A stretch of DNA of 64,000 bases from Miscanthus floridulus (lineage: Eukaryota; Streptophyta; Magnoliopsida; Poales; Poaceae): contig NC_089587.1 in the NCBI RefSeq assembly GCF_019320115.1, positions 103,498,347-103,562,346 on the forward strand, written 5' to 3'. The notes under the pieces are model-generated. The model ran no database searches, was not told the DNA's origin, and saw only the letters and a program-made list of their open reading frames with translations. Below, piece by piece: positions 9,072 to 38,887 of this stretch; position 1 is the first letter of the stretch; every line of letters starts with the position of its first letter. The translations under genes and the position numbers were made by a program.

Positions 9072-9821
9072 TGTAACGTCCCGCCTCTCTAAGGCCGGGT
9101 CCGCTTACATCTGGCAGCTTCTCTAGGATATAGACTGCCCTCACAGACCAACATAGGTCTTTTCTGCGCACTTTGTCCTCACTCGTGCGCACCCGGGAAG
9201 AACTTCCCGGTCGGTCACCCATCGCTCTAGGCCAAGCACGCTTAACCTCAGAGTTATTTGCAGATGGGCTTCTGGAAAAGAAGTTGCAATTTATTGGTAT
9301 GAGTATCCTATTAATCCTGTTAAGCCCTGGGCCGGGATGTTACATCCTCACCCCCTTAAGAGATCGACGTCCTCGTCGATCAATCCCAAGCCAGGAGCGT
9401 CCTCTCTTGGCCACGTCCGTGTGTCCAGAGCCAGCGCATGTGCCATGCTGTGTGACCACACTGGATCCACACCAGCCATGCGCACCATGCCTGCGCAACT
9501 ATGATACACGCGCCCATGAAACCGTGAGAGTCGGCTCTGATACCATTCTGTAACGTCCCGCCTCTCCGAGGCCGGGTCCGCTTACATCTGGCAGCTTTTC
9601 TAGGATATAGACTGCCCTCACAGACCAACATAGGTCTTTTCTGCGCACTTTGTCCTCACTCGTGCGCACCCGGAAAGAACTTCCCAGTCAGGCACCCATC
9701 GCTCTAGGCCAAGCACGCTTAACCTCAGAGTTATTTGCAGATGGGCTTCCAAAAAAGAAGTTGCAACTTATTGGTATGAGTATCCTATTAATCCTGTTAA
9801 GCCCTGGGCTGGGATGTTACA
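9072..9821 (-). mobile_element. TRIM element (miniature LTR retrotransposon)
   Basis: Two 273-bp direct repeats (9072-9344 and 9549-9821), both starting TGTAACGTCCCGCC and ending GATGTTACA, flank only 204 bp of internal DNA. The internal part has GCTCTGATACCA at 9534-9545, the reverse complement of an initiator-Met primer-binding site, three bases from the right LTR, and a pyrimidine-rich stretch (TCCTCACCCCCTT) beside the left LTR that reads as a polypurine tract on the minus strand. This is the layout of a TRIM in minus orientation: no coding capacity, so it depends on proteins from other elements. No 5-bp target duplication is visible; instead it is bounded by the 573-bp direct repeats. 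Confidence 0.85.
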
Positions 9822-10395
9822 ATCTAGCTCTTGGTCCAAAAACAAAGTTTGTTCTACATGATATGGACTACAACTTTTATTTAAGGTCCAACCTCAAAAC
9901 TGGTATAGAACCTACTGTTCTACTTTGACCAAAGTAGGATCACGATGAAGCTTAAATTATCCTTTTTGATCCATTGGAGCGTTTTCGTGGCATTTTCCCA
10001 ACATGAACCTTTCATGACTTTTGTTGTAGAGTTCATCTAGAGTCATTTGGGCATGGTTGCAAGATTTGGTTGATGATCGAGAATTCCCTTCACTTTATAA
10101 AATAATTCAAGCAACGACATAACTCGTCATTTCATGTGACTTCTTGATTCCAAACTTCACGAAACTTTTCCATAGATCAATATAGATGGTTATTGATGTG
10201 AGACACACGAAGATATTCCAATAACACCACCCAAGCATATATCTTGAAAAAGAGGTCTATAGGCGAACAAAGGTGCAATATCCAAGTTTAGGTTGGGGCT
10301 CGTTTCTATAGGTTGGACCTTGACATCTTCATCATCACTTAATATGCCATGTTCGAGCTCAAACCCATTGCTTAACTGGTGGCAAACACCTAGGG
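9822..10395. repeat. Direct repeat copy 2 flanking the TRIM
   Basis: Second copy of the 573-bp LTR segment described at 8499-9071. It begins immediately after the TRIM and continues into the true LTR terminus TGTTACA at 10396-10402. Confidence 0.85.
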
Positions 10396-10402
10396 TGTTA
10401 CA

Positions 10403-15198: not shown

Positions 15199-17634
15199 TG
15201 TAGGGTCGAGATGGAGGACTAGAGGGGGATGAATAGTCCTTTCTAAAATTAATCGCACCAGCTTATCGAAACAAATGCAGAATTAAAACTATCGGTCTAG
15301 CCAAGACTATAGCCCTCTATCTAAGTTCTCAAGCACCTTAAAAGGATCCTAAATAGGCAACAAAGGTGTCGGGCTAGCTAGAGCTCACCTAACCAATTCT
15401 AGAAGCAAGATCACACAAACCTATGCAACTAGTACTTCAAGCAACTGGGAGAGCTCCTACACAGCTAGTGATGCAAAGCGCACAAAGCTCCTAAGCTCAC
15501 TAGCAATGCTCAATAATAAGGCTTCACAAGCCAAATTAGAGAGTGCAAATTACTTAGCTACATAAACTAAGCAATGTAACTAATAAGGTTACTAAAACCA
15601 AATTAGTTACGCAAGGGTGCTACTTCTATGCTACACAAGCAAGAAGGTAACTAGCAAGCTACACAAGCTAACTAATTATAAGAGCAACTACACAAGCACA
15701 ATATATATGATATTAAATACAAAGCCTATGTATGGGGGTTGCAAACCAACGGGAAGAGGATGACATGATGATTTTATCCTGAGGTTCACTTAGTTGCCAC
15801 CAAGCTAGTCCCCGTTGTGTCGACTGCTCACTTGGTGGTTCATCGGCTAATTGGCATCACTCGCTAAGCCCACAAGTTGGGCACCACAAGAACCTACCCC
15901 AAAAGTGAGGGTAGTTCAATGACACGCTCAACTAGAGTTGCTCTTCATGTCTCCCACGGGGCGAGCACAATACCCCTCACTATCACTTCTCTGGAGTACC
16001 GCACAATCTTCTTGTATGCTTCACAATGGAGAACTTGCCACCAAGCTATCTAGGAGGTGGCAACCTCCAAGAGTAATAAGCACCACCAGCTTGCAACTCG
16101 ATCACCTATTGCCACTTGAGGCAATCTCACAATGCAACGCACTAGAATCACTCACTCGTAATGGATTCGCACTTCTTGCAAGCACAAGTGAGTTAGAGGC
16201 TTCTCAAACCAAGCACACACAAGGGCAACACATCCCCAAGGTGCTCAACCTCAGCCAAGCCCGAGCTCCACCTCTATTTATTGCCCTTAAGCCAAATTTC
16301 TGTGTATTTCTGCGTGGTCACCGAACAGTAACGTGTGGGCACTGGACAAGGGGTGGCGGTGCCCCAACGGTCGAATTACAATGGCTATTTCAAACTAGCT
16401 ATTGGAAAAGTGGGCATCAGACATAGGGGGGCGGTGCACCGCCCTATGGGTGGCGGTGCCTCCTGCCGACCAAAACCCAAACCCGGTGCTCTCTGGGAAA
16501 ATATGGCGGTGCTAGACACTGGACAGTCCGATGACCATGGTGGTGCCATATTCAGCTCAAACATGATTTCCACCACCTCAAGCTTGTAGATCATTTCATT
16601 AACTTTCCGAAAAGTCCTAGATCGTCGAAATCGGAGTTCAGAGCTAAGAGTTATGCCCAAAATACGAAAGGGTGGTAGTGCTGATTTGGGCACGTTGCAT
16701 GGGGTGGCGGTGCATAGTGCATGGGGTGGCGGTGCCACCACCGTAGGGTGTCTAGCGCACACTGGAAAGGGTGGTGCCACCCCCTAGGCTAGGTTGTGTA
16801 TTGGCCACAAGTTTAGTTGCATTTTCCGACCCTAGGACAACCCAAACTTGCTCTTTTCTTCTTCTTTTTCTTCTCCAACTTCACCAAGTTGATCCAAATC
16901 AACTCCAACAACTTCTCCTTTACAAATGTGCCAACACTACCAAGTGTACAATATCATGTGCAAGTGTGTTAGCATTTTCATAAATATTTTCCAAAGGACT
17001 AGTCACTCAATTCACAATGCCACTAGATCCTACCAACGATGCAAAGTTAGATCACTCAAGTGGCACTAGATAACTGATATGCAAACAAGTTTGACACTCT
17101 TGATAGTACGGCCATCTATCCTAAATCCGATCATAAACTTCTCTACACACCTATGACCGATGAAATGAAATATCCTATAGGTTATACCTTGGCCTTGCAT
17201 ATTCCATTCCATCTCCTCCAATGTTGATGCAACACATGCACCAACCAATCACAAATGATATGATTCACTTCATATTATCACATGACCGTATTGGTTCATC
17301 GATCTTGACTTCACTTGCTCTTCACCGTTGCTTCGGTCCATCGGCGCCAAGGCATCACTCAACTTGCCCTTCATACTTGCAACTGGTCCATCAAGCCAAG
17401 TCTTGTCTCGATCTTTTACACCTTAGCACATGACTCATTGTCATGTCTCATATAGCTTTAAGCTCCTTCATCATATGTGTGAGCCTTGCAACATATCCAA
17501 GCCATCTTCACTGTCATGGCATGAGTTGCTCACACAAGTGTACCTATGGACTAATCACCTGTGTATCTCACATTTAAACACATTAGTTCATCTCAGTTGT
17601 CACTTAATTACCAAACCAAACTAGGAACCTTTCA
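15199..17634 (-). mobile_element. Solo LTR, 2.4-kb TGAAAGG family, copy 1
   Basis: Minus-strand LTR: plus strand opens TGTAGGGTCGAGATGG and closes AACCTTTCA, so the element reads TGAAAGG...CCCTACA. It is flanked by GCGGC (15194-15198) and GCGGT (17635-17639), a five-base target duplication with one change. Length 2436 bp, almost the same as the related copy at 54515-56956 in the other orientation. No internal region is present, so it is the product of LTR-LTR recombination. Frames such as that at 15938-16426 are non-coding LTR sequence. It interrupts a gypsy element between leader and gag. Confidence 0.8.
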
Positions 17635-22101: not shown

Positions 22102-22560
22102 ATGGCGCCCAAGGCCGAGAAGAAGCCCGCGGCGAAGAAGCCGGCGGAGGAGGAGCCCGCGGCGGCCGAGAAGGCGCCCGCCGGGAAGAAGCCGAAGGCC
22201 GAGAAGCGGCTGCCCGCGGGCAAGTCCGCGGGCAAGGAGGGCGGCGGCGAGGGCAAGCGGGGCCGGAAGAAGGGCAAGAAGAGCGTGGAGACGTACAAGA
22301 TCTACATCTTCAAGGTGCTGAAGCAGGTGCACCCGGACATCGGCATCTCCTCCAAGGCCATGTCCATCATGAACTCCTTCATCAACGACATCTTCGAGAA
22401 GCTCGCCGCGGAGGCCGCCAAGCTCGCGCGGTACAACAAGAAGCCCACCATCACCTCCCGCGAGATCCAGACCTCCGTCCGCCTCGTCCTCCCCGGGGAG
22501 CTCGCCAAGCACGCCGTCTCCGAGGGCACCAAGGCTGTCACCAAGTTCACCTCGGCCTAG
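22102..22560 (+). CDS. Histone H2B
   Basis: 152-residue intronless gene. The start chosen is the ATG at 22102 that gives [10 protein letters not shown], the usual start of plant H2B; an in-frame upstream ATG at 21790 would read through the promoter. Residues 1-60 form the lysine/alanine/proline-rich tail, and residues 61-152 the histone fold ([21 protein letters not shown], then [34 protein letters not shown]) ending AVTKFTSA. The lysine in the final AVTK motif is the conserved site of H2B monoubiquitination in plants. The product pairs with H2A in the nucleosome. Very high GC and C/G-ending codons are normal for grass histone genes. Upstream type I and octamer elements predict S-phase expression. 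I see no damage. Confidence 0.97.
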
Positions 22561-23537: not shown

Positions 23538-23824
23538 ATGGAGGTGGACCTGTCGTTCGGGGCGGTGGCGGCGATCTGGGAGGGCGAGGTGGCGCGGGAG
23601 ATGCCGCTGGTCCTTCAGGTTCTGGTGGTGCGCACGTGCTCGTGCCCAAAGCGGCCAGAACCAGGATGGTGCCATGCGGCGCTCTCCGACGGCGCCCACC
23701 TCATTGCCGGTCATCTGCGCCTCGACGAAACCGCCTCGGCAGCCGTCCGGGCGGCCCCGCGTGGTTACGGCGCCGTGGTCCGCCTCCTCGACTTCGAGAC
23801 CAGAACAAATATCGAGGGTGCGAG
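23538..23824 (+). CDS. Exon 1 of poly-RPA70N gene (type A)
   Basis: Residues 1-95 plus two bases. Starts MEVDLSFGAVAAIWEGE and carries LSDGAHLIAG and GYGAVVRLLDFE; ends at GAG|GTGCGC. It encodes most of module 1; the last strand is supplied by exon 2. Much more GC-rich than the other exons, as usual for the 5' end of grass genes. GAVAAIWE and LSDG.HLI match exon 4 better than any other exon. Confidence 0.85.
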
Positions 23825-26336
23825 GTGCGCGCCGCTTCCCACCCACCTGCTCGGATCGTTTTTCGCAGGAACAATTTGATATTGAATTTTCCCCATTAAT
23901 TTGGAGGGGGAGGGGGATGTTTTAGATTTTTGTCTAAACTTTTGCAAATTTATTATGTGGCGCAAATGAGTAGTAAGTAGGCAGTACATCTTTGGAGGGG
24001 GAGGGGATGTTTACCATCAGGTAGTTTCGGGTGTTGGCAAAGAGTTGGGTGGGGAGGTTTTGCGGTTCCTTGCAGTTACAGTAATCATTTGGTCTTTGTG
24101 TCTGCGCGTGCAGGAATACTCCGGTGCTTGCTTCAACTCTGAACTTGTGAACTTTGTAATTTCGTTGCCTCAGTAATGAAATTCGGGTATTCCGTTGTGG
24201 GAAAAAAGGGCATACTCCGGTTGTCTATCATTGATTTCTGTGGTAACAATTGATTGAGTACATTTAGTAGTTGTAGATGATGTGCTATCTGTTTCACTTG
24301 TAGATATGCAGTAATTTGCAGGGAGTAAATTTCTCTAATATGGGCCATGTTGTTAGTATTGGCTATTTAGCGTTGGTTTCATATTTCCTGTTGACTAGCT
24401 CATGATATCTCTTTATGTTTCCATCCACTTCATGCTATCATGAGTGGCTTAGCGCTGGGGGGTGCAGGGGATGCAGCTGCAACTCATTCAAATTCTTGAT
24501 GACCTTGTCTTGTGGGGTGTATTAAGCTTGTAGACAACTTACATTACTGTGTCTTGCGCACAACAATTTTTATATAGTAAAAAAATGCCAGCTAAATTAC
24601 TTGATTTCTAGAAGAACTTTGCCCTTTTTATTTATCTGATAGATTCAACTATTACGTTCAGTACTTTGATTTAGTTGCATACTCAATGTCTGGTTAGCTG
24701 TCCTTGTGCTATCATAGTATTCATGTTGGTGGAGGTGATTTCGGAGATGTGATGCTAATGATTTCTATGGCCATTTCCCCTAAATTCTTTGGTTCTTCTC
24801 TACGCATTGGTAATGCTAGAGCTAAATAACAGCACCATTGAAGGATACAGTACTTAGCTGTTTTATTTATTGAGTACTTTGAAATTTGAATCCAATGAAC
24901 TCACCATTATTTATTATTTACCTTTTCGTATTTTATCTTTGAATTTCAGGTCAATTGACTCTGAACATGTTGAAGTGCTGCGTACTTCCTTGAAAATTGG
25001 GGATCCCAAAAGATACCAGCCTGGCTACTTGGTAAAAAAGCATGAGAAATTGGATGCTCAATTAGTGAGTAGTTCTTCCAAACAGAACTTTAGAGCCCAT
25101 CCTATCGGTCAAGGCTTGAAACAGCTTTTGATGAGGGGGGTGGTGGCGATGTTGCAGCATCCTGTGATGCAGGTGGTTGGTGTCTCACTATTGAGACCAG
25201 AGCCAAAAACTCTCGTGAAGTACCATTTGATCCTCTCTGATGGTGTGCATACACAGAATGCTACGCTACATCCCCGCCTCAACCATCTAGTCAAGGAAAC
25301 TCACCTCCGCAAGGGCACCATTGTCCGCCTCCTCGATTTTGTTTGCTGTAATGTTCGGTATCGCAGGTGCCAATAGTTCCTTATTTTTCTGAAACTGGAT
25401 CCTTGATGTTTGTGGTTTCTTCGCTTTAATCACTTTATTATTCTTTCGGATTTATTTAACATTATTTGCTAGACTGCCACTGTGCCACATAGAGGCAAGA
25501 GTGCAGCACAATTCTCCTTTTTTGTTCAGTGCCACTATGCTTACCAATAGTTTTCATATAGATACAGGAATAACCTCTGATAGACTGGCTATACTTTACA
25601 AGTCCAGGCTATGGTGAATCTTTTTTATTTTTATTTTTATTTTTTTGGGCCCCTTCTTGTTTATTAACAATCATTGAGGTGAAGAATGCCACACTATGTG
25701 AATTATTAGTTCCTAATGTTCTCATGTACTCTATTTTCTGTTATGACTTAGTTGTGATATGACCGATATGCTCATTGCTGTGGAAAGTATGTAACCTGTT
25801 GTCAATGCTGAAAAATCAATAGTCTTAAGTTTCATATTGAAGCCATAAACAAGTTACTGCCTATCACGTTTGTTTCAGTCTTAGTGAGTGCAAGTTTTAG
25901 TAGTGTTTGCTCTTTTGGTCTGTGACTTAAGATTGAAATGTTTGAACTTTGAGTTTAATGTTCAGTGCTCAATTCAGAAGTCTTACCTGTAGAATCATAG
26001 GTATCATGTTTGTGGTTAGTGATTATAGAGATGGACTGAGTTGTAACTCGTAAGCTGTAACTATTGGAGCAGTGCCACTTGTATTTGCTAGATCTCTAGG
26101 TTATTTTTTGTTGTCAAGCTGGCCCTCCAAAGACTGGTACCCTTTTTTTATCAATGTATCTTTTTATAGAGACCATTTCCATAGTTCCATTCCATCTTTA
26201 TTGAGTATATATCAATGTTTTCAGGTCGTCTGGTCGAACCTGGAGTATATACCGACCAGGAGACTAATCGCGATTAGTCGTCGACCAGGCCGATTAGTCG
26301 ACCCTGGTCGTCCATCTAGTCGTCCATGTATATCAG

Positions 26337-26378
<42 letters not shown>

Positions 26379-29300
26379 GTATACACAATAAAGCAAGCAT
26401 CAAGACTGCATTAGTGTTTAGCTGGTGACACTAATGCAGTCTTGATCTTGACGCACCTGAACAGCAGCACTGCTGCAGTAGCAAAATAACTAACATTTAG
26501 TAGACCATAGCAGCCACACAACCATCATATTACATAACCAAATTAGTTCAGTACAGATAAGCTAAAGTGTTCAACACAAAGTCACAAACATTGACATTCA
26601 ATAGTCCTACATGTCCGCCCAGTTAAACAGGCCCAAAAACAGAGTAACCAAACTGGTCGTCCCTGTCCTAGTCGGACGACTAATCGCGATTAGTCGTCGA
26701 CTAATCGAACGACCAGCTTTCTGGTCGAGCTAATGGAGTTGGTCCTCCTAATCGAATACTAGAGACCGACCAGGACGACTAATCGCGATTAATCGGACGA
26801 CCTGAAAACATTGGTATATATCTGTTTAGATCTGTCAATACTTTTCAAGGATAACTGGAATCATTATTTAAACACATTTCTAAAACTAATTTACCATCCC
26901 GTTAGTCATTTCATGCCATCCTTCTGGATGTGACCACATGATTAGCTAGCGAAAGAAGCGATGGAGTGTGTTGCCGTTAGCTGTGCTTTGACTGGAGTAA
27001 TTAGATTTCTTAGTTTTGTAGTAGTGTTTAGTTTCTCTATGGCTTAAACTTAGACTTTTAGTGCTTAGCATGGGTTGAATGCTCTATTATTAGTTCCCAT
27101 ATTTCATTTACTATGATAGGTGTCAGTATGCAAATCATGTCTGTAAGTTATTCAAATGTTGTAGCAGTCATATCGGTATTTTTCATGGTTTATGTTTCCT
27201 GTTGATCATTAGATAGTACTCCGTCCGTTCCAAATTATAAGACGTTTTGGCTTTTTTACATATGTTGCTTTTATTATGTATCTAGACATAATGTATATCT
27301 AAGTGCATAGCAAAAACTATGTATGTAGAAAAGCCAAAACGTCTTATAATTTGGAATGGAGGGAGTATAACTAACTTTATTTGCTAGAGTTGTGATTTCA
27401 TCAGACTAACCCTAGAAGGAGGGTAGCAATGTATATTGGTCATACATGGGCCTCATGGGCCTAATCCACATACTCTCATACTCCAACACCCCCCCGCAGT
27501 CTGAACTACCGGCGCAGCGGAGTTACAGACTGGTCATGAAAAGAAGCACACACGATCACACGATCCCCCCCCACAGACGCAACTAGCCACCAATGATGTT
27601 GAGGCTGGAGCGAAACTCGGTGAAGGTCGATGACGGGAGGCCCTTGGTGAAGATGTCGGCAAACTGGGAGGTGGTCGGGACGTGGAGGACCCGAACATCG
27701 CCGATAGCAACCCGATCACGGACAAAGTGTAGGTCGATCTCCACATGCTTGGTCCGTTGGTGCTGCACAGGGTTGGTGGAGAGGTACACCGCACTGACGT
27801 TGTCGCAGTAGACCAGCGTGCTCCGGGAGAGAGGGCTGTGGAGCTCGGCAAGGAGCTGTCGGAGCCAGGAGGCCTCAGCCACGCCGTTAGCGACAGCTCG
27901 GTATTCCGCCTCGGCACTGGATCGGGAGACCACCGGTTGGCGCTTGGACGACCAGGACACCAGGTTGCCGCCCAGAAAGACAGCGTAGCCTGAGGTAGAG
28001 CGCCGAGTGTCCGGACACCCGGCCCAGTCGGCGTCAGTGTAGACAACGAGCTCGGTGGAGGAAGACCGCTGAAGGAGTAAGCCGTGGTTGACAGTGCCGC
28101 GGAGGTAGCGGAGGAGGCGCTTGAGCGCAGTGAGGTGAGGCTCTCGGGGATCATGCATGTGAAGGCATATCTGCTGTACGGCATAGGTGATGTCTGGCCT
28201 GGTGAAGGTGAGGTACTGAAGGGCACCTGCAAGACTCCGGTAAGCAGTGGGGTCTGCCACGGCGGTTCCCACGGCCTCTGACAGCTTGCCCTGTGTGTCA
28301 ACTGGAGTAGAGCAGGGCTTGCAGTTAGTCATCCCAGCACGCTCCAGGATATCAAGAGTGTACTGCCGCTGGTGAAGGAGAAGGCCGGTGGGGCGAGGCT
28401 CAACAGTGACCCCGAGGAAGTGGTGGAGCACACCAAGATCCTTCATAGCAAACTCCTGGTGAAGAGAGGCGATGACACGGCTGAGTAAGGACGGACTGGA
28501 GGCTGTGAGGACAATATCATCAACGTAGAGCAGCAGATAGGCAGTCTCAGCTCCATGGTGATAGATAAACAGGGACGTATCTGACTTGGCCTCCACAAAC
28601 CCCAGTGTCAGCAAGAAAGCAGCAAACCGAGAATACCACGCCCGGGGGGCCTGCTTGAGCCCGTAGAGAGACTTGTTGAGCCGGCAGACCATGTCCGGAC
28701 GAGAAGAGTCAACAAACCCCGCTGGCTGGCTGCAGTAGACCGTCTCGGTGAGAGTCCCGTGGAGAAAGGCATTTTTGACGTCCAGCTGATGCACGGGCCA
28801 AGAGCGACTGAGAGCCAGTGAGAGCACTGTGCGTACAGTGGCCGGCTTCACCACGGGGCTGAAAGTCTCATCATAATCGACTCCAGGGCGCTGAGTGAAA
28901 CCCCGGAGAACCCAGCGAGCCTTGTACCTCTCAAGGGAACCATCAGCCCGCCGCTTGTGCGTCCAGATCCACTTCCCGGTGACAACGTTGGATCCGGGTG
29001 GACGGGGCACCAGATCCCATGTCTGGTTGGCGAGGAGAGCCGCATACTCCTCTTCCATCGCGCGGCGCCAATGAGGGTCCGACAAGGCGTCGCGAACGGA
29101 AGAGGGTACAGGAGAGATCTGCGAGGCGTCGGGCATCGTCGCGAGAGCCCGGGGCCGCAGGGTTCCAGCCGCGTGTCGCGTCACCATAGGGTGAACATGC
29201 CGCGGGTGTCGGTGAAGGAGTTGCGGGTGGTACACCGGTGACACGACACGGGCAGCCTGAGGCGGCGGCGGCGGTGTAGGGGTCGCCGGCGGAGAAGGGG

Positions 29301-32300
29301 CCACCGGTGGTGTAGGCGTCACCAGTGGAGAAGGGGACCCCGGTGATGCCGGAGGCAGCGGTGCCGCCGGCACACGGCGCCGGTAGACGTGCACCGGCTG
29401 GGCGAAACGCGCAGGAGGTGCGACAGGCGGCGTCTCCGTACCCGCTGCGGACGTAGGGGCAGGAGCAGCTCCGGAGGGCGACGCCTCCGGACCCGGGCAG
29501 GGCGCAGGGCCAGGGGCGTCACTGGTGGGTGGCGAGCGGGGGCACGGGCCCGGCGAGGGGCACGGGGAAGCAGTACCTGCAGGAGACAGCGGTAAAAGTG
29601 GCTGGACCACCGTGTCAGTGGGAAACAAATAGAAGGGGTCCGGATCGGGGGTGGGAGATGGGGTGGTGGTGGTGGAGAAGGGAAAGACAGACTCATCAAA
29701 CACCACATGGCGAGAGATGATGACCCGACGGGAGGTGAGGTCAAAGCACCGGTACCCCTTGTGATCCGGGGAGTACCCAAGGAAGACACACAGAGCGGAA
29801 CGGGGAGCCAGCTTGTGGGGAGCGGTGGCAGTGGTGTTAGGGTAACACGCACACCCGAAGACACGAAGGTGGTCATACCGAGGAGGGGTACCGAAGAGAG
29901 CGTGGTGCGGTGTGGGAGCCGGGCAGGCAGCGGAAGGAAGGCGGTTAAGGAGATAGGTGGAGGTGTGCAGACTCTCTGCCCAGAAGCGAGCAGGAAGCGA
30001 CGCCTGGAGCAGAAGGGTGCGCATGGTGTCGTTCGTGGTGCGAATCATGCGCTCGGCCTTGCCGTTCTGGGAGGAGGTATACGGGCAAGACATGCGCAGC
30101 TGGACACCGTGAGAGAGGAAGAAGGCACGGGAGGTGCCGTTATCGAACTCACGGCCATTGTCACACTGGACGGCCTTGATGGTGAGGCCGAACTGAGTAG
30201 ACACCCAGGCGAAAAAGTGGAGAAGAGTGGGGAAAGTATCCGACTTCGCACGCAAAGGGAAAGTCCACGAATAATGCGAGAAATCGTCAACCACCACAAG
30301 ATAGTATTTATACCCAGAAATGCTGATGACAGGAGATGTCCATAGGTCGCAGTGTACAAGATCAAACACATGCGTAGCATGTGAAGAAGAAGAACAAAAG
30401 GGGAGACGAACATGACGGCCCAGCTGGCACGCATGACACAAGTGCTCATCGTGAGCCCGAGTACAACCAATGTCGGAACTGCGACTAAGCTGCGTCAGAG
30501 CATCACGTCCAGGATGGCCAAGCCGACGGTGCCAAGTGGTGGAAGAAGGAGTGGCGGCGAAGGCAGCTGACAAAGTAGACGGCGACGAAGAGGAAGCGGA
30601 CGCCGGAAACCGAAGGGTGTAAAGGGGTCCCGCGCTGTCACATCGGAGAAGAGGACGCCGGGAAGCCAAATCCTTCACAGTAAGACCAGAAGAGTCAAAT
30701 TCAACAGAACAAGAATTGTCAGCTGTAAAACGACGAATAGAAAGAAGGTTGTGAACCATAGAGGGTGCAACAAGAATGTCAGGAAGACGAAAGGAACCAT
30801 GAGTGCCGGCGGCACCCACGGACGTAACTGGAATACACGAACCATTCGCGACCATGATGGACGAAGGATGAGAGGAAGAAGGAGGGTGAAAAGAAGAGAG
30901 TATACCAGGGTCTGGAGTAGTGTGGTAAGTGGCACCCGAATCGGCAATCCAGTCGGTACCAGCAGGCGGTGTCAGGGCCATGGTGCTGAAGGATCTGGCC
31001 AAGGCCGCCGGGTTCCAACCGACAGGCCCGGGCCAGATGTCGGGAGGTGGCACCCACGAAGATGCGCCGGGAAGTGGAGCCCACGCAGACGGGGAGTGAA
31101 ACCCTGGAGGAGCTCCAGTGAGCAAGGCTGCTGGTGGGCGAGGCTCTCCGCCTGGAGCCGGGAAGGGCCACATGTAGATGCGCCCCGACCACGGGTTGTG
31201 GAAGGAGGGCCAGGGTGCACCCCGTGGGGTCGCGGGCGTAGGGGCTCCGGAGGGCGACTGCACCGGTGTGTGGTGGCTTCCGCGGCCCCCACGTCCCCCT
31301 CCGCGGCGACGGCGGCCGCCACGCCCCCCCCCACCCCCGCCCGGCCCGGGAGGAGGAGAACCAAGAAGCGACGACGGCGGTGGAGCGAGGGAACGCGCCG
31401 GAGGAGTAGCGGCCAGGGCAGTCGAGGAAGACGAGGACCCTGGCGTGGAGGTGGACCCTGGCTGGACGCCCTGAGTGAGCTCCTCCATGACAAGGTCGTC
31501 ACGGACCTGCAGGAAGGAGGGAAAGGGCCTCTGCCGGGTGATCCACGTCCGGAGGTGGGCGTAGCGGTCACTGAGCCCGCGGAGGACATTGAGGACCAGG
31601 ATGCGGTCCTCCACGGGCCAGCCAAGGTCGCCGAGGGAGTCCGCCATGCTCTTCATGCGCCGGCAGAAGTCGCCAACGGAGAGGTCACCCTGGACGAAGG
31701 TGCGGAAGCTCGCATCGAGACGTAGGGCCCGGGCTTCGGCATTGCCCAGAAACTGGCCCTCGAGCGCAAGCCAGGCCCGGCGAGCGTCAGCAGAGTTGCG
31801 GACGAGGTCGTGGAGGTCCAGGGAGATCGTCCCGATGATCCAGGAGAGGACGACACTGTCCAGGCGCAGCCACGATGAGGTCTGGACTGCGACCGAGGCG
31901 TCGACTAGGACGTGGTCGTCGAGGGCGTAGCGGCGGAGGGTGAGGAGAACCAGGTCCCTCCAGCGGGCGTAAGAGGGCGACTCAGGTTCGAGGACGACCG
32001 GGACGAGGAGTCGGATGTTCTGGACACCCCCGGCCTGGTAGTGGAGCTGAGCGACGTGCGGGTCGGCCGGGTCGTGCCAGATGACCGTGGTGTGAGACGC
32101 GCGGTGACCCGTCGAGCCTGAGGAGGTGGCCGCGGTGTCGTAGGATGTAGGGAGGACGAGGAGCTGCTCCGCCTCAGCGATCTGGCGGGCCAGGGCATCA
32201 GCCGCGTCACGCTCGCGCTCCAAAGCGAGGGCGGCCGCCCGCACCCGGGCCTGGCTGTCAGCAGCAGCAGCCCGTGCAGCCACGAGAGCAGCGGCGAGAG

Positions 32301-35300
32301 CGGAGCTGGCCCCTGCCGTCTGGAGAGGGGCAGAGGGCGGGCAGAGGAGGAGGAGCGGGGAAGAAGAAAGGCTCCAGGTTCTCCCCCGCGCCCCCAGCGG
32401 CAGGGGAGTGGCTGCCTGCGCCCGCCCCTGCAAGCAGCGGCGGCGGCAGCGGCCAGGCTGTCCAAGCCCGCGCCCGCGGCGGCAGGGCCAGCGGCCAGGC
32501 GCCTGCGCCCGCGCCCGCGGCGGCAGGGCCGCCTGCGCCCGCGCCCGCAGCGGCGGGGCCGCCTGCGCCCGCGCCCGCAGCGGCGGGGCCGCCTGCGCCC
32601 GCACCCGCAGCAGCGGGCCCGCCTGCGCCCGCAGCGGCGGCGGGGCCACCCACGCCCGCGCCCGCGGCCGCGCCGGCACCCGCGCCGCGCCCGCAGCGAC
32701 AGCGGCGGCGGCCGGGCCTTCCGCGTCCGCGGGAAGGAGGCCTGCGCCCGCGCGCTGGGCCCAGGACGGGTAGGGAAGGGAGGGGAAAGCCTGGGAGTAG
32801 GTTGGGGAGGGAGGGGGAGGACGGCCAGCCATGGCGGCGGCAAGAAATCGGCCGGCGGCGCCTGGCGGCTGGGTGGGAAAGGGGAGGAGGAAAGCCTAGC
32901 TCTATACCATGCTAGAGTTGTGATTTCATCAGACTAACCCTAGAAGGAGGGTAGCAATGTATATTGGTCATACATGGGCCTCATGGGCCTAATCCACATA
33001 CTCTCATACTCCAACATTATTTCTTGAAAATGTTTACTGTTAGAGCAAGAAGAACATTGTGCTATAATCTTAGGAATATGGTTGTGGCATGCTAAGATCG
33101 GTTGGTAGTATTTCTAAAGTACTACTTGTCCAACAAATTCTCAATGCTTTATGATTTATTGCTTTTCCTGTTGTATGTTTCTTAATTCAGTATTATCACT
33201 GTTTGGCAACTTAAAGTGCTGCCGATAGAGTGTGAGTTGATTGGAAGCCCCAAAGCATGTGAGCTCTGTTGCATTGAAAAAGTCTATGGACTCGACAGTG
33301 AATCTGCTGAACCATATTCTGGATCAGTGTCCAATTATGCTCAACCAAATAATGGACCCTATTTTACTTGTCAAGGCTTGAATTGGTACCTTACTCAGGG
33401 TGCAGTAGCGGCAATAATGGAGGGTGAGATGGCGGTAGAGCGGCAGCCAGTGCTGCAGGTGGTTGATTTCTCACTAGTGAGTCACAATGGGTTCAGCTTT
33501 TACCGTATATTGCTCTCAGATGGTGTCCACCAGGTGTACGTCAACCTCTTTCCCCACCTAAGCCACCTGGTTGAGGGCAGTTGCCTCCGGAAAGGTACAA
33601 GAGTCCGCCTTCTCAGGTTCATCCGTGACACAGTCGACCAGGACCAGAATTGCAGGTAAGGATCCCTTGTGTTCTTATATAAAATAAACTAACTGAGTTG
33701 ATATCAAACTTTCTTGCATGTTGAGAGCTCTTGGCTTTATTTTGTTGGAGGCGAGATTGGCCTTCATCTATGTTCGTCTGACAAATAATGTTGCCACATT
33801 AGTCATATGCATGATATAGTATCTTTTGTTGCCTGTGCGTTTTCATTTGCACATGTTAGAAGAATTCTTACTCGTCATTAGGTGGACCTATTACAAAGTG
33901 AATTTATTGCTTGAAATAAGGTCCTTGTACAGCACACCACGTACATCTCAAATTCTCAATAAGGTGCATTCCCTCAGCTGACAGTCTCTAAGTCTTACAA
34001 TTTGCTAAAATTGAACTCATCCATCTTGTGTTATTTCACCTGTTGTTGGCATGAAAAATTCAGGATTGCCATTGCTGTGGAACTTGAAGTACTCCAAACA
34101 GAATGTGAGCTGATTGGAAACCCAACCTTCTATGAGCTTGGAAATAAACAGAGCCACTCCAACTTGGAGTCCTTACTGCCCATTTCTGGAAGCTTCTGCA
34201 ACGATCAGGGAGGCATGGAGATGCAGGCAAGCCTGACGTGGGGAGCTGTGGCGGCCATCTGGGAGGATGTGGCTGTGGTGGTGCAGCCAGTGCTGCAAGT
34301 GTTTGACCTGCTTGTATGGGCAGAGATGGATGAGCCCTGGTTATCCCCTATCTTGCTCTCGGATGGCACCCATTTGATCCGCGGCGGCCTTTCCCCATAC
34401 ATAATCAGCTCATCGATCTTCAGGGACAGCTGCCTCCACATGGGCGCAGTGGTCCGACTCCTTGAGTTCACGTGCCACAATGACAGAAGTGAGAGGTATG
34501 GGTTGCTTCCCTGCATCCAAATTCAATTGGTATTTGATATTGCCAAGTTTTTGGTAATTGTTGGGTGGCTTATGTGTGAATCAGAAGCAAAAGCAGAAAA
34601 TTGGGTTTGTGAAAATTTACAAGTTCCTTTTTTTTATTAATTATTAATTACTATGTTTGATGCACATGCGCATGAGAAATACACCTACCGCACAAAAGTA
34701 TGTTTCCAAGGACATATTTAAACTTGTAGATGTGGGACAAATACGTTACCTCATACTCATAGTGCATGGACACACATTTACCCACACCATAAACTGCTTG
34801 TGCATAAAGGATTCATAGACCTGAAACTCCTATCAACTATAAGGTGGTTTCATCACGTGTTCTGATTGTTGTGCAGTTACGCAGTTGTTGGGGTATGTGA
34901 GTTTAGCCTTCCCTGCTCTAAATTCCCAGTAAGGTTAGGGGATTTATGATATGCTTCTATAAATCATTCATTTTCTCTTGCGTGCCTTGCTCCTGTAGGA
35001 ACACTTTAGCCGCTCACAATCGCTATTAGGTGAACAAGCAGCTCATGCAGTACGTCCAGTAGATTATATGCAACTCATTCGGTTGTAGCTGGGTGGTAAC
35101 TTGCAGGAATAAATTAACGTGGACCATGTAATTAATTTTTTCTATTTAACATTCGGTTCCATTAATTTCTTGTTGGGTAGTTTGAGGCACCTCTTTGTAT
35201 TTTCATATGATCTGCATTTCAGGCTATAATTCAGCACTGGTTGGTTTAAGGGAAGTTTTTGTGTTTTGTTTTATGAATTAAGTTTTGAGTGGCATATTAG

Positions 35301-38300
35301 GCCTGTAGGCTTGTATAAAGTCTTGTGAAAACTCATTTTTTATATTAATATAAATATCAACTAAATTACTAGTGTTTAGAATGATGCCTTTTTTCTCCTT
35401 TTATTTTATTTTATTTTTTGGTGATTTGAACTCTTACTTTCAGTGCTTATCATATTGACTGCATGGTTGCTATGGAAGCACCATAACACTTATGTCTTTG
35501 ATAGAGAAACCCCTTTCGTTAGCGAAGTTTTGCAACAATTTTGGGATGAGTATAAGCTATGGTGTCTAGCCGGAGCTAAGAAGCTCCAAGCTCTGGGACT
35601 GGATGGGGTAGAAACACTCGGATGAGTTTTCCTTTCTTTTTGGCGGTTAAACGTGTTTACCAGATACCAGGTAATTGTGTTGCAAGTGTATCCAACTTTC
35701 TCATGTATGGTCCTGGCATGAGTTGGTAATGTATAGGGGCCATTTTTTCCCCTCTATAATACAAAGATACATAGCTCTCCCGCGTGAAAAAAAAAACTTT
35801 CAGTGCTTTGGTTCGGTTGCATGCTCGAATTTCAGTTTAGATATTCGTGCTGTGCTATCATAGATTCTGAGTTGTAATTCCTTTGTGATAATAATTGAAT
35901 TATTGTCGTGGCCACGTTCCCCTAAATCCATCCAATCTTGTTGATAAGAAGGTGATCTTATTGGCCCTATGCTAGGGCTGCTAACAACATGATCTAAGGG
36001 ATGTACAATTAAATCCTCCATTAGCTATGTGCAGTATGTTCAATGCTATAAATTTGCTGTCCACTTCTATCTACCCTTTCATAAGCTGTCTTTGAAATTC
36101 AGGGTCATCGTTGTGTTAAAACTTGAAGTGCTGCGGACGGATTGCACGTTGGTTGGAAATCCCAAACAGTATCCATCTGGCAAGTTGGAAAACAAGCGTG
36201 AGGAATTGGACGCTGAATCAGTGTCCAGTAATGCCAAACTGAACTGTGAAGCCTATTCTGCTGGGCAACGCCTGAAGGAATTCCTGACAAGAAGGGGGAT
36301 GGTAACCGCATTGCAGCAGCCTGTGATGCAGGTGGTTGATGTGTCACTGATGAGATCTGAGCTGAAGAAGTTTGGGAGGTACCACTTGATACTTTCTGAT
36401 ACTGTGCACACACAGGATGCTACACTAGCACCCGGCCTGAATCACCTGGTTGAAAACATTCTTCTCATCAAGGGTTCCATCATCCGCCTCCTTGAGTTTA
36501 TTTGCGATACCGCCAAGAGTCCCAGGTGCGAATCATTCCTTGTTTTCTCAAAATGGATCCTTGTGCAAGAAAGACTGGTTGAGGCCTTAGGGCCATTTAT
36601 CACTTTGTTAGTTGAAATATTTTTATTTGTTGAAGTATATGTACTGATTTATAATGTGGCCACTTAGTTGCAGTTCAATACATTTTCACTTCACAGCGTG
36701 TGCAGATAGTTTGCATGCAACTTTGCAAGAATACTAACTGATCGATAGCTCATCCATGGGGTGTACTTTTTGATCAATACTATTATATACTTTGTCCACA
36801 TTTTATATAATTTCATCCGATGGTGTTTTTCGGGTCCTACTTAGCTATTAACAGTGATTGAAGAGAGATCAAAATACTGACATACTGTACAAGAAGAGAG
36901 ATACATTTCTACATTCTTTGTTGCAGTGGAAAGTCAACCTTGTCAATGATTGAATTTAGCCTTGTCATATTGAAACATTGGAAAATATCTCAGCATGTCA
37001 CACATGGTTTGCTTTAGTTGAATTTATACTTTACAACAACATTTGTTTTTGCATGACTTCCACTTATCATGTTTTGTGTCCCAACTTGTGTTGAATGGTC
37101 AATATGTCATTCATGTCATTCCAAATTTATCTGGTACCGAGATGTAACATTTGAAACAGTATTTGCTATCCCTCTTGTTTATTCTTAGTCATGAGATTGA
37201 CCTTGTAGATACTGGTATGATTTGCCCAATCAGCACTATACAGAGCTAAACTGTCAAATCTTCAGTTGTTGATTGAGTGTGTATTCTTGGTCATGAGATT
37301 GACCTCAGTTGGTTAAAGGTGTTAAGTGTACACCCTGACCACCTAGGTTCAGGTCCTCAAGTGATCAGGTTTTGTTTTCCTTTTCACTTTTCAAAGATCA
37401 CCTTGTAAACAAAGTTTGAAATAATTCACCACTCTATTTTATCATTTCATGTCATCTTTGACACTATATATTGGCCAGTTGGCCATATTATTGAACTACC
37501 AAACCTAGTAATGGTGTGTGTTGCTGTCAGCTGTGCTTTGGTTGGAGTAACTGGATTCATAATTTTGATATGCTGTTTCTTCTTATTATATTTATGGGGC
37601 TTTCACTTGAACGTGTAGTGCTTAGTTTTGGTTGAGCACTGTATTATTACTCCGCCTATTCTACTCACTACATGGTGTCATGTTGTAGATAGTTGTCATT
37701 TCCACTACTCAATATTACAGCCTTTAAAAAGGGGGTTTAGGATTGTCATGTTACTAGTTTGTCTGTGTTCTGGTTTGTGCTGAGTGCTGGCCACTATAAA
37801 TGTTGTAATTTATTTCTTGGAAAATGTTTTTCAGTCGAGGAAAAACGATTACACTTACCTAACAAATTCACCATACTTTGTTGACCTTTTTTGTTTTTTC
37901 CCTGTCCGCATGCTTACTTCTGAGTTCAGTATGATCATTGTTATCCAACTTGAAGTACTGCAAACAGTATGTGAACTGATTGGAAGCCCTAAAGCATATG
38001 AGCTCTCATTATTTGAAAAACCCTATGTGCCTGAGGGTAAATATAGGGAACCATATCCCAGATCAGTGGCCAATTATGCTCAACCAATGAATAAACCCTG
38101 TCCTAGTGGCCAAGGCTTCAAGGGCCATCTGACTTGGGGGGCAGTGGTGGCAATTCTGGAGGGTCAGATGATAGCAGAACAGCAGCCAGTGATGCAGGTA
38201 GTTGATGTCTCAAAAGATAATCAAGAACGGTACCATATTTCGCTCTCAGATGGTGTCTACTGGATGTGCGGTTTTCTCATATCCAACCTAAGACATCTGG

Positions 38301-38887
38301 TTGATAATAATTGCATCTGCAAAGGAACTATAGTTCGCCTCCACAAGTTCTTCTTTGACACCTTCCGGAATTGCAGGTATGGATCCCTTTTCATGTTGCA
38401 CTATATGTGCAGACTTGTGCAGTGCAAGAGAGATCGAGTTTGCCTTGGCTGTGTGTGTATCTGCATGAAGCATGATGTACTATATGTTTAGAAAACTTTT
38501 GATTCATCTTTAGTGGACCTTTTATTGCTTGAAACAAGTTCTTATATAGGACATAACTACATCTTAATAAGGTGGACACCCTCCTGTCATCTTCCGTTCG
38601 TGGTTTTGTTCACTTACCAATTTGCCACTTTGGAAAAAAGAGGACTCTAGCTTCCTCTGTTACCTAACCTTCTGTGTGTCGGTTACTTGGCTTCTGAATT
38701 CAGGACCATCTTTTTTGCTCAATTTGAAGTGCTCGAAAAGAAATGGGAGCTGATCGGTAGCCCTACCTATAAACCTGTAAACAAGCAGAAGGGATCGGAC
38801 GCTGGCCATGCTTCCTACATTCCTGCAGACGCTGTTGGACAATCCTCTGGCCAATCTCATCCTAGATACAAAGGCACCCCGGGTTGA
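23538..38887 (+). CDS. Poly-RPA70N domain protein (six tandem RPA70N modules)
   Basis: Seven-exon gene; exons 23538-23824, 24950-25366, 33191-33655, 34064-34495, 36103-36525, 37930-38376, 38704-38887. Every junction is GT-AG and phase 2; total 2655 nt, 884 residues. The product is six copies of the RPA70N domain (Rep-A_N), the N-terminal OB fold of replication protein A large subunit, which binds partner proteins rather than ssDNA. Each has the GAVAAI...G.....P.LQV..., LSDGVH, L.HLV, KG..VRLL.F and LEVL...CELIGNP.. signature. Approximate modules: 1-115, 152-255, 302-410, 447-554, 591-695, 742-844, with 30-45-residue linkers and a 40-residue tail. The ssDNA-binding domains A, B and C of RPA1 are absent. 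It lies 978 bp downstream of H2B on the same strand. No frameshift or stop. Intron 2 contains a copia element. Splice sites are predicted by eye; function is unknown. Confidence 0.82.
24950..25366 (+). CDS. Exon 2 of poly-RPA70N gene (type B)
   Basis: 139 codons, phase 2-2. Acceptor TTGAATTTCAG, donor CAG|GTGCCA. Opens with the closing strand of module 1 (HVEVLRTSLKIGDPKRY), then a linker with KKHEKLDAQLVSSSSK, then module 2 (VMQVVGVSLL...YHLILSDGVHTQNATL...LNHLV...LRKGTIVRLLDF). Closest relative in the gene is exon 5. Confidence 0.88.
26213..26813 (+). mobile_element. hAT-like MITE, 601 bp, ATTAGTCG repeats
   Basis: Terminal inverted repeats CAATGTTTTCAGGTCGTC / GACGACCTGAAAACATTG, flanked by the 8-bp duplication GTATATAT (26205-26212 and 26814-26821), which fits the hAT superfamily. 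Both arms repeat the palindrome-like phrase GACTAATCGCGATTAGTCGTC. A (CA)n microsatellite lies near 26346-26371. No coding capacity. Confidence 0.85.
27219..27365. mobile_element. Stowaway MITE
   Basis: 147 bp with inverted ends CTCCGTCCGTTCCAAATTATAAG / CTTATAATTTGGAATGGAGGGAG and TA on both sides (27217-27218, 27366-27367). These are the classical ends of Tc1/mariner-derived Stowaway MITEs of grasses. It lies 14 bases from the copia LTR. Confidence 0.95.
27583..32832 (-). CDS. Copia gag-pol polyprotein, uninterrupted, 1749 residues
   Basis: One frame with no stop. Order: a low-complexity N terminus (about 1-150) with repeated RARAQAAPPL units; gag of the UBN2 type (about 230-440, with FRTFVQGDLSVGDFCRRMKSMAD); a glycine/arginine-rich tract (GGGGGGRGGRRRRGGGRGG) where a CCHC zinc knuckle is expected but not found; aspartic protease with DWIADSGATYHTT; a GAG-pre-integrase HRRLGHP...CHACQLGRH zinc-binding segment; integrase core (HCDLWTSP, VVVDDFSHYSW, QCDNGREFDN, SSQNGKAERMIRT); reverse transcriptase (KARWVLRGFTQ, VHQLDVKNAFLHG, YVDDIVLT); RNase H (YTDADWAGCPDTRRSTSGY, KHVEIDLHFVRD). 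All catalytic motifs appear present. Reading starts at the ATG 78 bp inside the right LTR. It may be an autonomous element; expression is unknown. Confidence 0.95.
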   Translation of the reverse strand: MAGRPPPPSPTYSQAFPSLPYPSWAQRAGAGLLPADAEGPAAAAVAAGAARVPARPRARAWVAPPPLRAQAGPLLRVRAQAAPPLRARAQAAPPLRARAQAALPPRARAQAPGRWPCRRGRGLGQPGRCRRRCLQGRAQAATPLPLGARGRTWSLSSSPLLLLCPPSAPLQTAGASSALAAALVAARAAAADSQARVRAAALALERERDAADALARQIAEAEQLLVLPTSYDTAATSSGSTGHRASHTTVIWHDPADPHVAQLHYQAGGVQNIRLLVPVVLEPESPSYARWRDLVLLTLRRYALDDHVLVDASVAVQTSSWLRLDSVVLSWIIGTISLDLHDLVRNSADARRAWLALEGQFLGNAEARALRLDASFRTFVQGDLSVGDFCRRMKSMADSLGDLGWPVEDRILVLNVLRGLSDRYAHLRTWITRQRPFPSFLQVRDDLVMEELTQGVQPGSTSTPGSSSSSTALAATPPARSLAPPPSSLLGSPPPGPGGGGGGRGGRRRRGGGRGGRGSHHTPVQSPSGAPTPATPRGAPWPSFHNPWSGRIYMWPFPAPGGEPRPPAALLTGAPPGFHSPSAWAPLPGASSWVPPPDIWPGPVGWNPAALARSFSTMALTPPAGTDWIADSGATYHTTPDPGILSSFHPPSSSHPSSIMVANGSCIPVTSVGAAGTHGSFRLPDILVAPSMVHNLLSIRRFTADNSCSVEFDSSGLTVKDLASRRPLLRCDSAGPLYTLRFPASASSSSPSTLSAAFAATPSSTTWHRRLGHPGRDALTQLSRSSDIGCTRAHDEHLCHACQLGRHVRLPFCSSSSHATHVFDLVHCDLWTSPVISISGYKYYLVVVDDFSHYSWTFPLRAKSDTFPTLLHFFAWVSTQFGLTIKAVQCDNGREFDNGTSRAFFLSHGVQLRMSCPYTSSQNGKAERMIRTTNDTMRTLLLQASLPARFWAESLHTSTYLLNRLPSAACPAPTPHHALFGTPPRYDHLRVFGCACYPNTTATAPHKLAPRSALCVFLGYSPDHKGYRCFDLTSRRVIISRHVVFDESVFPFSTTTTPSPTPDPDPFYLFPTDTVVQPLLPLSPAGTASPCPSPGPCPRSPPTSDAPGPAPCPGPEASPSGAAPAPTSAAGTETPPVAPPARFAQPVHVYRRRVPAAPLPPASPGSPSPLVTPTPPVAPSPPATPTPPPPPQAARVVSPVYHPQLLHRHPRHVHPMVTRHAAGTLRPRALATMPDASQISPVPSSVRDALSDPHWRRAMEEEYAALLANQTWDLVPRPPGSNVVTGKWIWTHKRRADGSLERYKARWVLRGFTQRPGVDYDETFSPVVKPATVRTVLSLALSRSWPVHQLDVKNAFLHGTLTETVYCSQPAGFVDSSRPDMVCRLNKSLYGLKQAPRAWYSRFAAFLLTLGFVEAKSDTSLFIYHHGAETAYLLLYVDDIVLTASSPSLLSRVIASLHQEFAMKDLGVLHHFLGVTVEPRPTGLLLHQRQYTLDILERAGMTNCKPCSTPVDTQGKLSEAVGTAVADPTAYRSLAGALQYLTFTRPDITYAVQQICLHMHDPREPHLTALKRLLRYLRGTVNHGLLLQRSSSTELVVYTDADWAGCPDTRRSTSGYAVFLGGNLVSWSSKRQPVVSRSSAEAEYRAVANGVAEASWLRQLLAELHSPLSRSTLVYCDNVSAVYLSTNPVQHQRTKHVEIDLHFVRDRVAIGDVRVLHVPTTSQFADIFTKGLPSSTFTEFRSSLNIIGG
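32490..32665. repeat. 30-bp GC-rich tandem repeat inside copia gag
   Basis: Units of GCCTGCGCCCGCGCCCGCAG plus CGGCGGGGCC recur about four to five times in tandem, with small changes. In the copia frame they encode repeated RARAQAA(P/L)P units near the N terminus. Being a multiple of three, unit gain or loss keeps the frame open. Confidence 0.8.
33191..33655 (+). CDS. Exon 3 of poly-RPA70N gene (type C)
   Basis: 155 codons, phase 2-2. Acceptor CTTAATTCAG, donor CAG|GTAAGG. Opens IITVWQLKVLPIECELIGSPKACEL (end of module 2), then a linker with SVSNYAQPNNGP, then module 3 (LTQGAVAAIMEGE, PVLQVVDFS, LLSDGVHQVYV, LSHLVEGSCLRKGTRVRLLRF). Closest relative is exon 6, with the shared linker phrase NYAQP.N. 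Confidence 0.9.
34064..34495 (+). CDS. Exon 4 of poly-RPA70N gene (type A')
   Basis: 144 codons, phase 2-2. Acceptor AAAAATTCAG, donor GAG|GTATGG. Opens IAIAVELEVLQTECELIGNP (end of module 3), linker, then module 4 (SLTWGAVAAIWEDVAVV, PVLQVFDLLV, LLSDGTHLIRGG, GAVVRLLEF). Module 4 shares GAVAAIWE and GAVVRLL(D/E)F with exon 1. Confidence 0.9.
34496..36102 (+). other. Intron 4, duplicate of intron 1 with a LINE insertion
   Basis: Matches intron 1 in several places, for example TGCAGGAATAAATT near 35102 against TGCAGGGAGTAAATT near 24317, and GCTATCATAG near 35854 against 24710. A truncated LINE at 35449-35795 is absent from the matching place in intron 1. Confidence 0.8.
35449..35795 (+). mobile_element. 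5'-truncated L1-type LINE in intron 4
   Basis: 347-bp insert ending in an A9-10 tail and flanked by the 13-bp duplication ACTTTCAGTGCTT (35436-35448 and 35796-35808). The frame at 35443-35625 reads TAWLLWKHHNTYVFDRETP..., the C-terminal end of plant LINE reverse transcriptase ORFs (zf-RVT region). Intron 1 has the empty counterpart ACGTTCAGTACTT near 24654-24666. Confidence 0.92.
36103..36525 (+). CDS. Exon 5 of poly-RPA70N gene (type B')
   Basis: 141 codons, phase 2-2. Acceptor TTGAAATTCAG, donor CAG|GTGCGA. Opens VIVVLKLEVLRTDCTLVGNPKQY (end of module 4), linker with KREELDAESVSSNAK, then module 5 (VMQVVDVSLMRSELKKFGRYHLILSD, LNHLVENILLIKGSIIRLLEF). Linker and module closely match exon 2. 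Confidence 0.9.
37930..38376 (+). CDS. Exon 6 of poly-RPA70N gene (type C')
   Basis: 149 codons, phase 2-2. Acceptor TGAGTTCAG, donor CAG|GTATGG. Opens MIIVIQLEVLQTVCELIGSPKAYEL (end of module 5), linker with SVANYAQPMNKP, then module 6 (LTWGAVVAILEGQ, PVMQVVDVS, ISLSDGVYWMCG, LRHLVDNNCICKGTIVRLHKF). Pairs with exon 3. Confidence 0.9.
38704..38887 (+). CDS. Exon 7 of poly-RPA70N gene (terminal, A''-like remnant)
   Basis: Acceptor CTGAATTCAG. Encodes the closing strand of module 6 (TIFFAQFEVLEKKWELIGSPTY) and a 40-residue tail ending HPRYKGTPG before TGA at 38885. Its SPTY...NKQK phrase resembles the linker of exon 4 (NPTFYELGNKQS), so it looks like the first part of a third A exon cut off before its own domain. 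Confidence 0.8.

Follow-up and report, generated by a model that had tools for sequence, protein, structure and literature searches.

The RPA1 subunit forms a trimer with RPA2 and RPA3 that binds ssDNA tightly, and RPA recruits partners mainly through the N-terminal domain of this subunit, RPA70N. To our knowledge, each described RPA1 contains one copy of RPA70N, which is followed by DBD-A, DBD-B and DBD-C. RADX and BRCA2 likewise carry several OB folds per chain, and the OB array of BRCA2, which associates with DSS1, is ordered OB1–helical domain–OB2–OB3. Here we analyzed a 64-kb stretch of Miscanthus floridulus DNA (the window), in which one gene encodes a protein that shares the RPA70N domain with RPA1 (plant RPA1C type), but has six of these domains and no DBD, and has lost most of the groove arginines.

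Script-based splicing of seven exons on the forward strand (23538–38887) yielded an 884-residue product, with exon lengths of 287, 417, 465, 432, 423, 447 and 184 nt giving 2655 nt, i.e., 884 codons plus the stop codon TGA (38885–38887). All six introns are GT–AG and all six are in phase 2. Exon 1 (23538–23824, donor GTGCGC) contributes the start codon plus the bulk of domain 1 (class A); exon 2 (24950–25366) contains the last strand of domain 1, a linker and most of domain 2 (class B); and exon 3 (33191–33655) contains the end of domain 2, a linker and most of domain 3 (class C). The order then recurs: exon 4 (34064–34495) harbors the end of domain 3, the putative fusion linker and most of domain 4 (class A), exon 5 (36103–36525) the end of domain 4, a linker and most of domain 5 (class B), exon 6 (37930–38376) the end of domain 5, a linker and most of domain 6 (class C), and exon 7 (38704–38887) the end of domain 6, a tail and the stop codon. 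Intron 2 is long because a Copia-type LTR retrotransposon on the reverse strand (27382–33016) was inserted there; the element, which is not part of the protein, has identical 107-nt LTRs, TTATT at both flanks, and RVT_2, rve and gag matches.

Pfam analysis of the product detected PF04057 (Rep-A_N) in six stretches (E = 1.8e-78, 259.5 bits versus a cut-off of 26.7) and no DBD family up to E = 1. This is the profile check that the initial annotation had called for, and together with the seven-exon splice it bears out the six tandem RPA70N domains in 884 residues described there. A PDB sequence search returned RPA70 chains, aligned over RPA70N, in 13 of 14 rows; the remaining row is an antibody chain (E = 0.89). 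Seven DBD-carrying RPA1-type proteins, compared with the whole 64 kb by tblastn, matched through their RPA70N parts alone, except for a single 13-residue match (E = 0.86); the window thus yielded no DBD part. An extra RPA70N copy was likewise not detected in the remainder of the window, where the best match had E = 0.14. The protein ends in the tail SHPRYKGTPG (38855–38884, forward strand), which is common to relatives. Given the position of this tail just before the stop codon, together with the Pfam and tblastn data, we rejected the possibility that splicing adds a DBD part downstream of 38887, and the product indeed lacks the DBD-A, DBD-B and zinc-finger DBD-C of RPA1, as had been claimed. 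The RPA70N-type OB fold was seen in low-confidence AlphaFold models of the relatives P0037 and P0001 rather than of the window's own protein (mean pLDDT 57.7 and 58.8, pTM 0.26 and 0.32). For each domain group tested, the top match was RPA70N, with the second fold comparison largely confined to the stretches of domains 4–6 of P0001.

The six-domain gene belongs to a real family and is not a freak gene. Forty-one proteins have at least two profile hits, many of them being fragments and two (P0005 and P0093) being RPA1-type proteins with DBD domains. Ten further proteins carry at least three such domains, when the split hits in P0041 and P0004 are each taken as one domain; their named species represent three subfamilies of PACMAD grasses, and these relatives have three to six RPA70N-type domains. 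P0001 from Urochloa is a full-length, six-domain orthologue (65% identical over 99%). P0001 and its kin are unnamed entries designated ‘Replication factor-A protein 1 N-terminal domain-containing protein’ and share the architecture, the entries other than P0001 having three to six domains versus six in Miscanthus. The earlier statement that no described protein of this design was known agrees with searches of open-licence papers, but unannotated database entries share the design. The proposed orthologue search recovered the Urochloa orthologue and PACMAD relatives, but no multi-RPA70N row from sorghum, maize or rice among ~8000 top word-sharing candidates in each of three protein lists. The tail pattern SHPRYKGTPG, composed after inspection of protein ends, occurs in 9 of 94 proteins, always at the very C-terminus (9/9). 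It is present in 7 of the 11 proteins with at least three domains (the window's included) and absent from P0001, P0037, P0039 and P0043. In the same genome, the PF04057 search gave 30 matches; besides a syntenic stretch (C13), 15 of these loci (L001–L008 and L012–L018) were compared and resemble single-domain RPA1-type genes or fragments rather than further intact copies, with L016 lacking a match.

The position and phase of the intron within RPA70N are those of canonical RPA1 (RPA1C type) in the same genome, and the linker style is similar by eye. In the domain tree, domains 1 and 4, 2 and 5, and 3 and 6 cluster pairwise, giving the layout ABC+ABC, while class A as a whole is weakly supported (59/77) in this tree of few columns, with P0002_d1 falling outside it. 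Exon 2 matches exon 5 at 72% (repeat D4), as does exon 3 with exon 6 (repeats D3 and D7). In Aristida two genes are kept, and the domain-4 type opens a separate, adjoining gene: P0070 begins MEPEPALTWGAVAAIW, and its first domain clusters with domain 4 of the Miscanthus protein (support 99/95). Exon 4 of Miscanthus has an in-frame ATG (34215–34217, forward strand; residue 441, ME..LTWGAVAAIW), which may represent the former start codon of a downstream gene. These sequence comparisons suggest that the six-domain gene is likely a fusion of two tandem three-domain (A-B-C) genes. Exon units duplicated from the RPA70N region of an RPA1C-type gene would have produced an A-B-C gene, and two such genes, arranged head-to-tail in tandem, would then have fused in the panicoid line. 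Block duplication within one gene is less likely, because domains of the domain-1 and domain-4 types each start separate genes elsewhere.

Based on these findings, we tentatively favor, at somewhat less than even confidence, a fusion-derived protein that strings together six RPA70N-type OB domains, lacks DBDs and is predicted to bind proteins as a multivalent array with a ligand preference unlike that of RPA70N. Six ligand grooves on flexible linkers could confer avidity for partners distinct from the acidic clients of RPA70N. A broader version, which we consider possible but rather doubtful, is that a PACMAD-grass family consisting of RPA70N domains only arose from RPA1 exon units through an A-B-C cassette that was placed in tandem and fused. 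Its recoded grooves would turn it into a novel multivalent hub, or else into a decoy for viral or transposon replication proteins that use RPA70N, sensing partners that RPA does not.

It is improbable, though worth weighing, that the gene is on its way out, its frame being open merely through recency and its product having little or no function. The syntenic C13 copy, likely a homoeologue, is broken by frameshifts in exons 1, 5 and 6 and lacks exon 3, but also carries the SHPRYKGTPG tail. The copy of a close relative (P0038/P0057) is likewise frameshifted, P0038 leaving the window's frame after residue 501, in domain 4; P0038 also reads from a retained intron 1. The annotated Setaria relatives are fragments, intron 2 bears the 5.6-kb Copia insertion, and evolution has been rapid in domains 1 and 6 (52%, the most diverged, and 59% identical to their Urochloa counterparts, respectively). 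Transcript evidence, which is partial and indirect, also counts against function: no transcript was seen over all seven exons, and none among the close matches for the E1/E2, E5/E6 and E6/E7 joins. However, the frame is open with all splice sites intact, the Urochloa orthologue is full-length, and dN/dS is below 1 between the two halves of the gene and 0.46 (0.30–0.77) between the syntenic copies. Moreover, domains 3 (82% to Urochloa, the best conserved) and 5 are more conserved than canonical RPA70N.

The initial annotation had proposed a multivalent scaffold or a competitor of RPA. In such a role, the domains would retain their affinity for the usual RPA70N clients, either competing with RPA or gathering several clients together. 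Work on human RPA70N (PMC10479964) reports that mutating four arginines lowered the binding of HELB, BLM, RMI1, WRN and RAD9 peptides. At the positions of human R31, R41, R43 and R91, the Miscanthus protein is basic in 6 of 24 cases, versus 95 of 132 in 33 canonical domains and 31 of 188 in 47 family domains, single cells of this count being unsure owing to alignment gaps near 31 and 91. Basic residues at 41 and 43 occur together in none of the six domains but in 26 of the 33 canonical ones (counted by hand). The six-domain protein thus lacks the basic ligand groove of RPA70N. Plant RPA1B also lacks the groove (PMC4731521), so that the groove is not essential for RPA70N membership and its loss does not prove loss of function. 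With these arginines mostly gone, direct competition for the HELB, BLM, RMI1, WRN and RAD9 ligands appears unlikely. The proposal, which presupposed that the six domains share the ligands of RPA70N, is weakened accordingly, while multivalent binding of something else is still compatible with the data. In favor of the scaffold or competitor role are the Rep-A_N match in all six domains, the RPA70N fold in the models of relatives, the R43 position kept in domain 3, and basic residues at the position of R41 in domains 2, 5 and 6. In addition, human RPA70N is reported to drive condensation of RPA–ssDNA (PMC13255724), which an array might enhance. Overall, we regard this scenario as having a small chance of being correct.

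We give an equally slim chance to a nucleic-acid binder, that is, a row of OB folds whose avidity would retain ssDNA, as RADX or BRCA2 achieve with OB folds of other kinds. The RADX profile (35.6 bits, cut-off 33.4; 47 residues in the best stretch, out of 848 profile positions) and BRCA-2_OB1 (35.3 bits, cut-off 25.6; residues 749–809; the sole BRCA2 family listed) both exceed their cut-offs, but these OB-type matches overlap those of RPA70N at far lower scores. Foldseek also listed RADX, BRCA2 and HIN-domain chains, ranked below RPA70N. Domain 2 has a net charge of +7, but the values for the remaining class B domains lie between −2 and +4, and the averages for classes A and C are 0.5 and −1.8, respectively; a conserved basic charge of class B was therefore rejected as a hint of DNA binding, domain 2 being an exception. 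RPA70N itself binds ssDNA weakly (PMC4731521).

That the gene model wrongly joins two separate three-domain genes, as the ABC+ABC layout, the ATG at the start of domain 4 and the two Aristida genes might suggest, is very improbable, since exon 4 is a single open exon that links the last strand of domain 3 to domain 4 with no stop, neither the common tail nor a stop lies between these domains, and the same join is present in P0001, P0038 and P0067.

Under the favored reading of a fusion-derived array, stringing together six RPA70N domains with the DNA-binding part dropped and the grooves changed provides a natural experiment for probing which ligands an RPA70N groove can accommodate. This grass protein also bears on the uncoupling of recruitment from ssDNA. 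The route of its fusion is traceable, as unfused, fused and broken states coexist in living grasses.

Splicing by script of seven forward-strand exons (23538-23824, 24950-25366, 33191-33655, 34064-34495, 36103-36525, 37930-38376 and 38704-38887) gave 2655 nt encoding 884 residues, with every intron GT-AG and in phase 2, so the open frame of the initial annotation splices cleanly. A Pfam search of the product returned six Rep-A_N stretches (E=1.8e-78) and no DBD family, bearing out the earlier reading of six tandem RPA70N domains without a DBD. The motif ME.xLS.GAVAAI lies at the start codon, as in relatives, and 7 of 11 proteins with at least three domains (the Miscanthus protein counted) terminate in [HSYF]PxYKxxPG/D or a close variant. 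Judged by these shared ends, both termini of the protein seem to be correctly placed in the gene model. The joins can be followed in close relatives: P0038 (28 member sequences from JGI; 4433-base contig), 92% identical over residues 96-501, is unbroken across the exon 2/3 and 3/4 joins, and P0057 across the exon 4/5 join. The first codon of P0038, like that of a further homolog, P0068, lies within intron 1 and is not ATG. Because such a start fits a bacterial gene caller, which does not splice, we infer that P0038 and P0057 are products of spliced transcripts. No such unbroken reading was found among close relatives for the exon 1/2, 5/6 and 6/7 joins; the three-domain P0037, from an 1869-base contig, spans three joins that are homologous, at ~50% identity.

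A whole-protein search returned 36 proteins, 32 of them RPA1-type with DBD-type domains and four without: P0001 from Urochloa decumbens (881 aa; 65% identity over 99%), P0002 and P0004 from Eragrostis (850 aa, 42% identity; 633 aa, 44% over 60%), and P0003 from Stipagrostis (590 aa; 46% over 65%). Profiles built from the last two domains and from three-domain forms matched 38 and 41 proteins, respectively. Ten relatives carry at least three domains (P0001-P0004, P0037 and P0039-P0043); those named, P0037 aside, come from three PACMAD subfamilies, Panicoideae, Chloridoideae and Aristidoideae. Wheat-group grasses among the listed proteins have a single RPA70N, alone or with other domains; in wheat P0087 and P0089, the precomputed Pfam list combines Rep-A_N with PF08646 and PF16099, the latter presumably the RMI1 C-terminal domain. 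In P0005 from Panicum miliaceum (1298 aa), RPA70N occurs twice (6-126 and 578-694) alongside DBD domains; perhaps the annotation merged a tandem pair of RPA1C genes. No paper on RPA70N-repeat-only proteins was found in the open-licence literature; plant RPA1 genes with one DBD-F are treated in PMC4731521.

In a tree of 83 domains built on few alignment columns, domains 2 and 5 form class B (99/95), domains 3 and 6 form class C (100/98 without P0037_d3), and B and C join at 100/98. Domains 1 and 4 group together with their nearest kin at 98/91 (class A), while class A as a whole is weakly supported (59/77), with P0002_d1 outside it and domain 1 on a long branch. Pairwise identities (1/4, 42%; 2/5, 60%; 3/6, 49%) agree with these classes, by which the domain order is A-B-C-A-B-C. 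The first domain of P0070, a separate Aristida gene adjoining the three-domain gene P0041, groups with domain 4 (99/95), and domain 1 groups (100/80) with the opening domains of Urochloa genes that have three domains. An in-frame ATG at 34215 in exon 4 matches the position of the P0070 start codon; the surrounding stretch is lost in Urochloa P0001. The six-domain gene thus likely arose by fusion of two tandem A-B-C genes, which predicts both this grouping and the exon 4 ATG. Family members adjoin one another in Eragrostis, Stipagrostis and Aristida, as read from neighboring locus tags. Because every intron interrupts its domain at one identical point, the repeated unit is a domain end, a linker and the next domain's start. 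Two canonical RPA1 genes in this genome, L006 and L007, share the intron position, which splits an arginine codon in phase 2. L007 matches the M. floridulus protein P0008 at 100% identity over 229 aligned residues, which makes Miscanthus, close to M. floridulus (Andropogoneae), the most likely source of the window.

Intron 2 holds a minus-strand Copia-type element (27382-33016) whose two 107-nt LTRs are identical. Its TTATT target-site copies and a single uninterrupted 1770-residue frame with RVT_2, rve and gag add to the features that point to a very recent insertion. Elsewhere, inverted stretches at 15245-17580 and 54568-56911 (84-91% identical, 37-41 kb apart; repeats I1-I6, I8 and I13) probably represent one mobile element present twice, in opposite orientation, on either side of the gene, and direct repeats of 154-300 nt (93-96% identity) occupy 8499-10401. 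On contig C17 of the same genome, RPA70N matches form two arrays, at 8.31-8.47 Mb (minus) and 9.90-10.08 Mb (plus), which are mirror images in order, orientation and score and would stem either from inverted duplication of an RPA1C-like array or from its duplication in the assembly. An intronless plus-strand core histone gene by Pfam, which we take from its sequence to be H2B, lies ~1 kb upstream (22102-22557).

A syntenic copy lies on contig C13, where the flanking histone region is preserved as well; this copy lacks exon 3, has lost the exon 4 acceptor and carries frameshifts in exons 1, 5 and 6, a decay that would count against tight constraint on the gene. Between the two copies dN/dS is 0.46 (0.30-0.77) over 711 codons, a value mixing a live and a dead branch. 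In the P0038/P0057 relative, domain 4 reads as frameshifted; in the homolog P0067, exon 4 is open at 97% identity. Between the first and second halves of the gene, dN/dS is 0.52 (0.39-0.68), lowest in class B (0.30; 0.17-0.50) and 1.4-1.7, with wide ranges, in linkers. Identity to Urochloa across domains 1-6 is 52, 69, 82, 69, 77 and 59%, compared with 68 and 71% for the canonical RPA1C N-domain in two Miscanthus-Paniceae/Paspaleae comparisons, whose pairs are taken as orthologous from their tree group (100/99). By this measure, domains 3 and 5 are conserved no less strictly than the N-domain of RPA itself.

In human RPA70N, according to PMC10479964, changes at R31, R41, R43 or R91 weaken binding of HELB, BLM, RMI1, WRN and RAD9 peptides. 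The four aligned groove positions are basic at 6 of 24 sites in the Miscanthus protein, 31 of 188 in 47 family domains and 95 of 132 in 33 canonical domains (Miscanthus versus canonical, Fisher p=2.9e-5, for domains that are not independent of one another). No domain of the six combines basic residues at 41 and 43; class B instead has a common M/R/K-Y-H, and P-S in place of R91-R92. Low-confidence structure models support six predicted OB units on disordered linkers, and fold comparison of the models of the relatives P0037 and P0001 named RPA70N first. Plant RPA1B, as described in PMC4731521, has also lost this groove yet functions in replication, so groove loss does not mean a dead domain. 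With most basic groove residues gone, the competitor role that the initial annotation had allowed is disfavored, and we favor a multivalent array whose grooves would be re-specialized over a competitor for RPA's clients.
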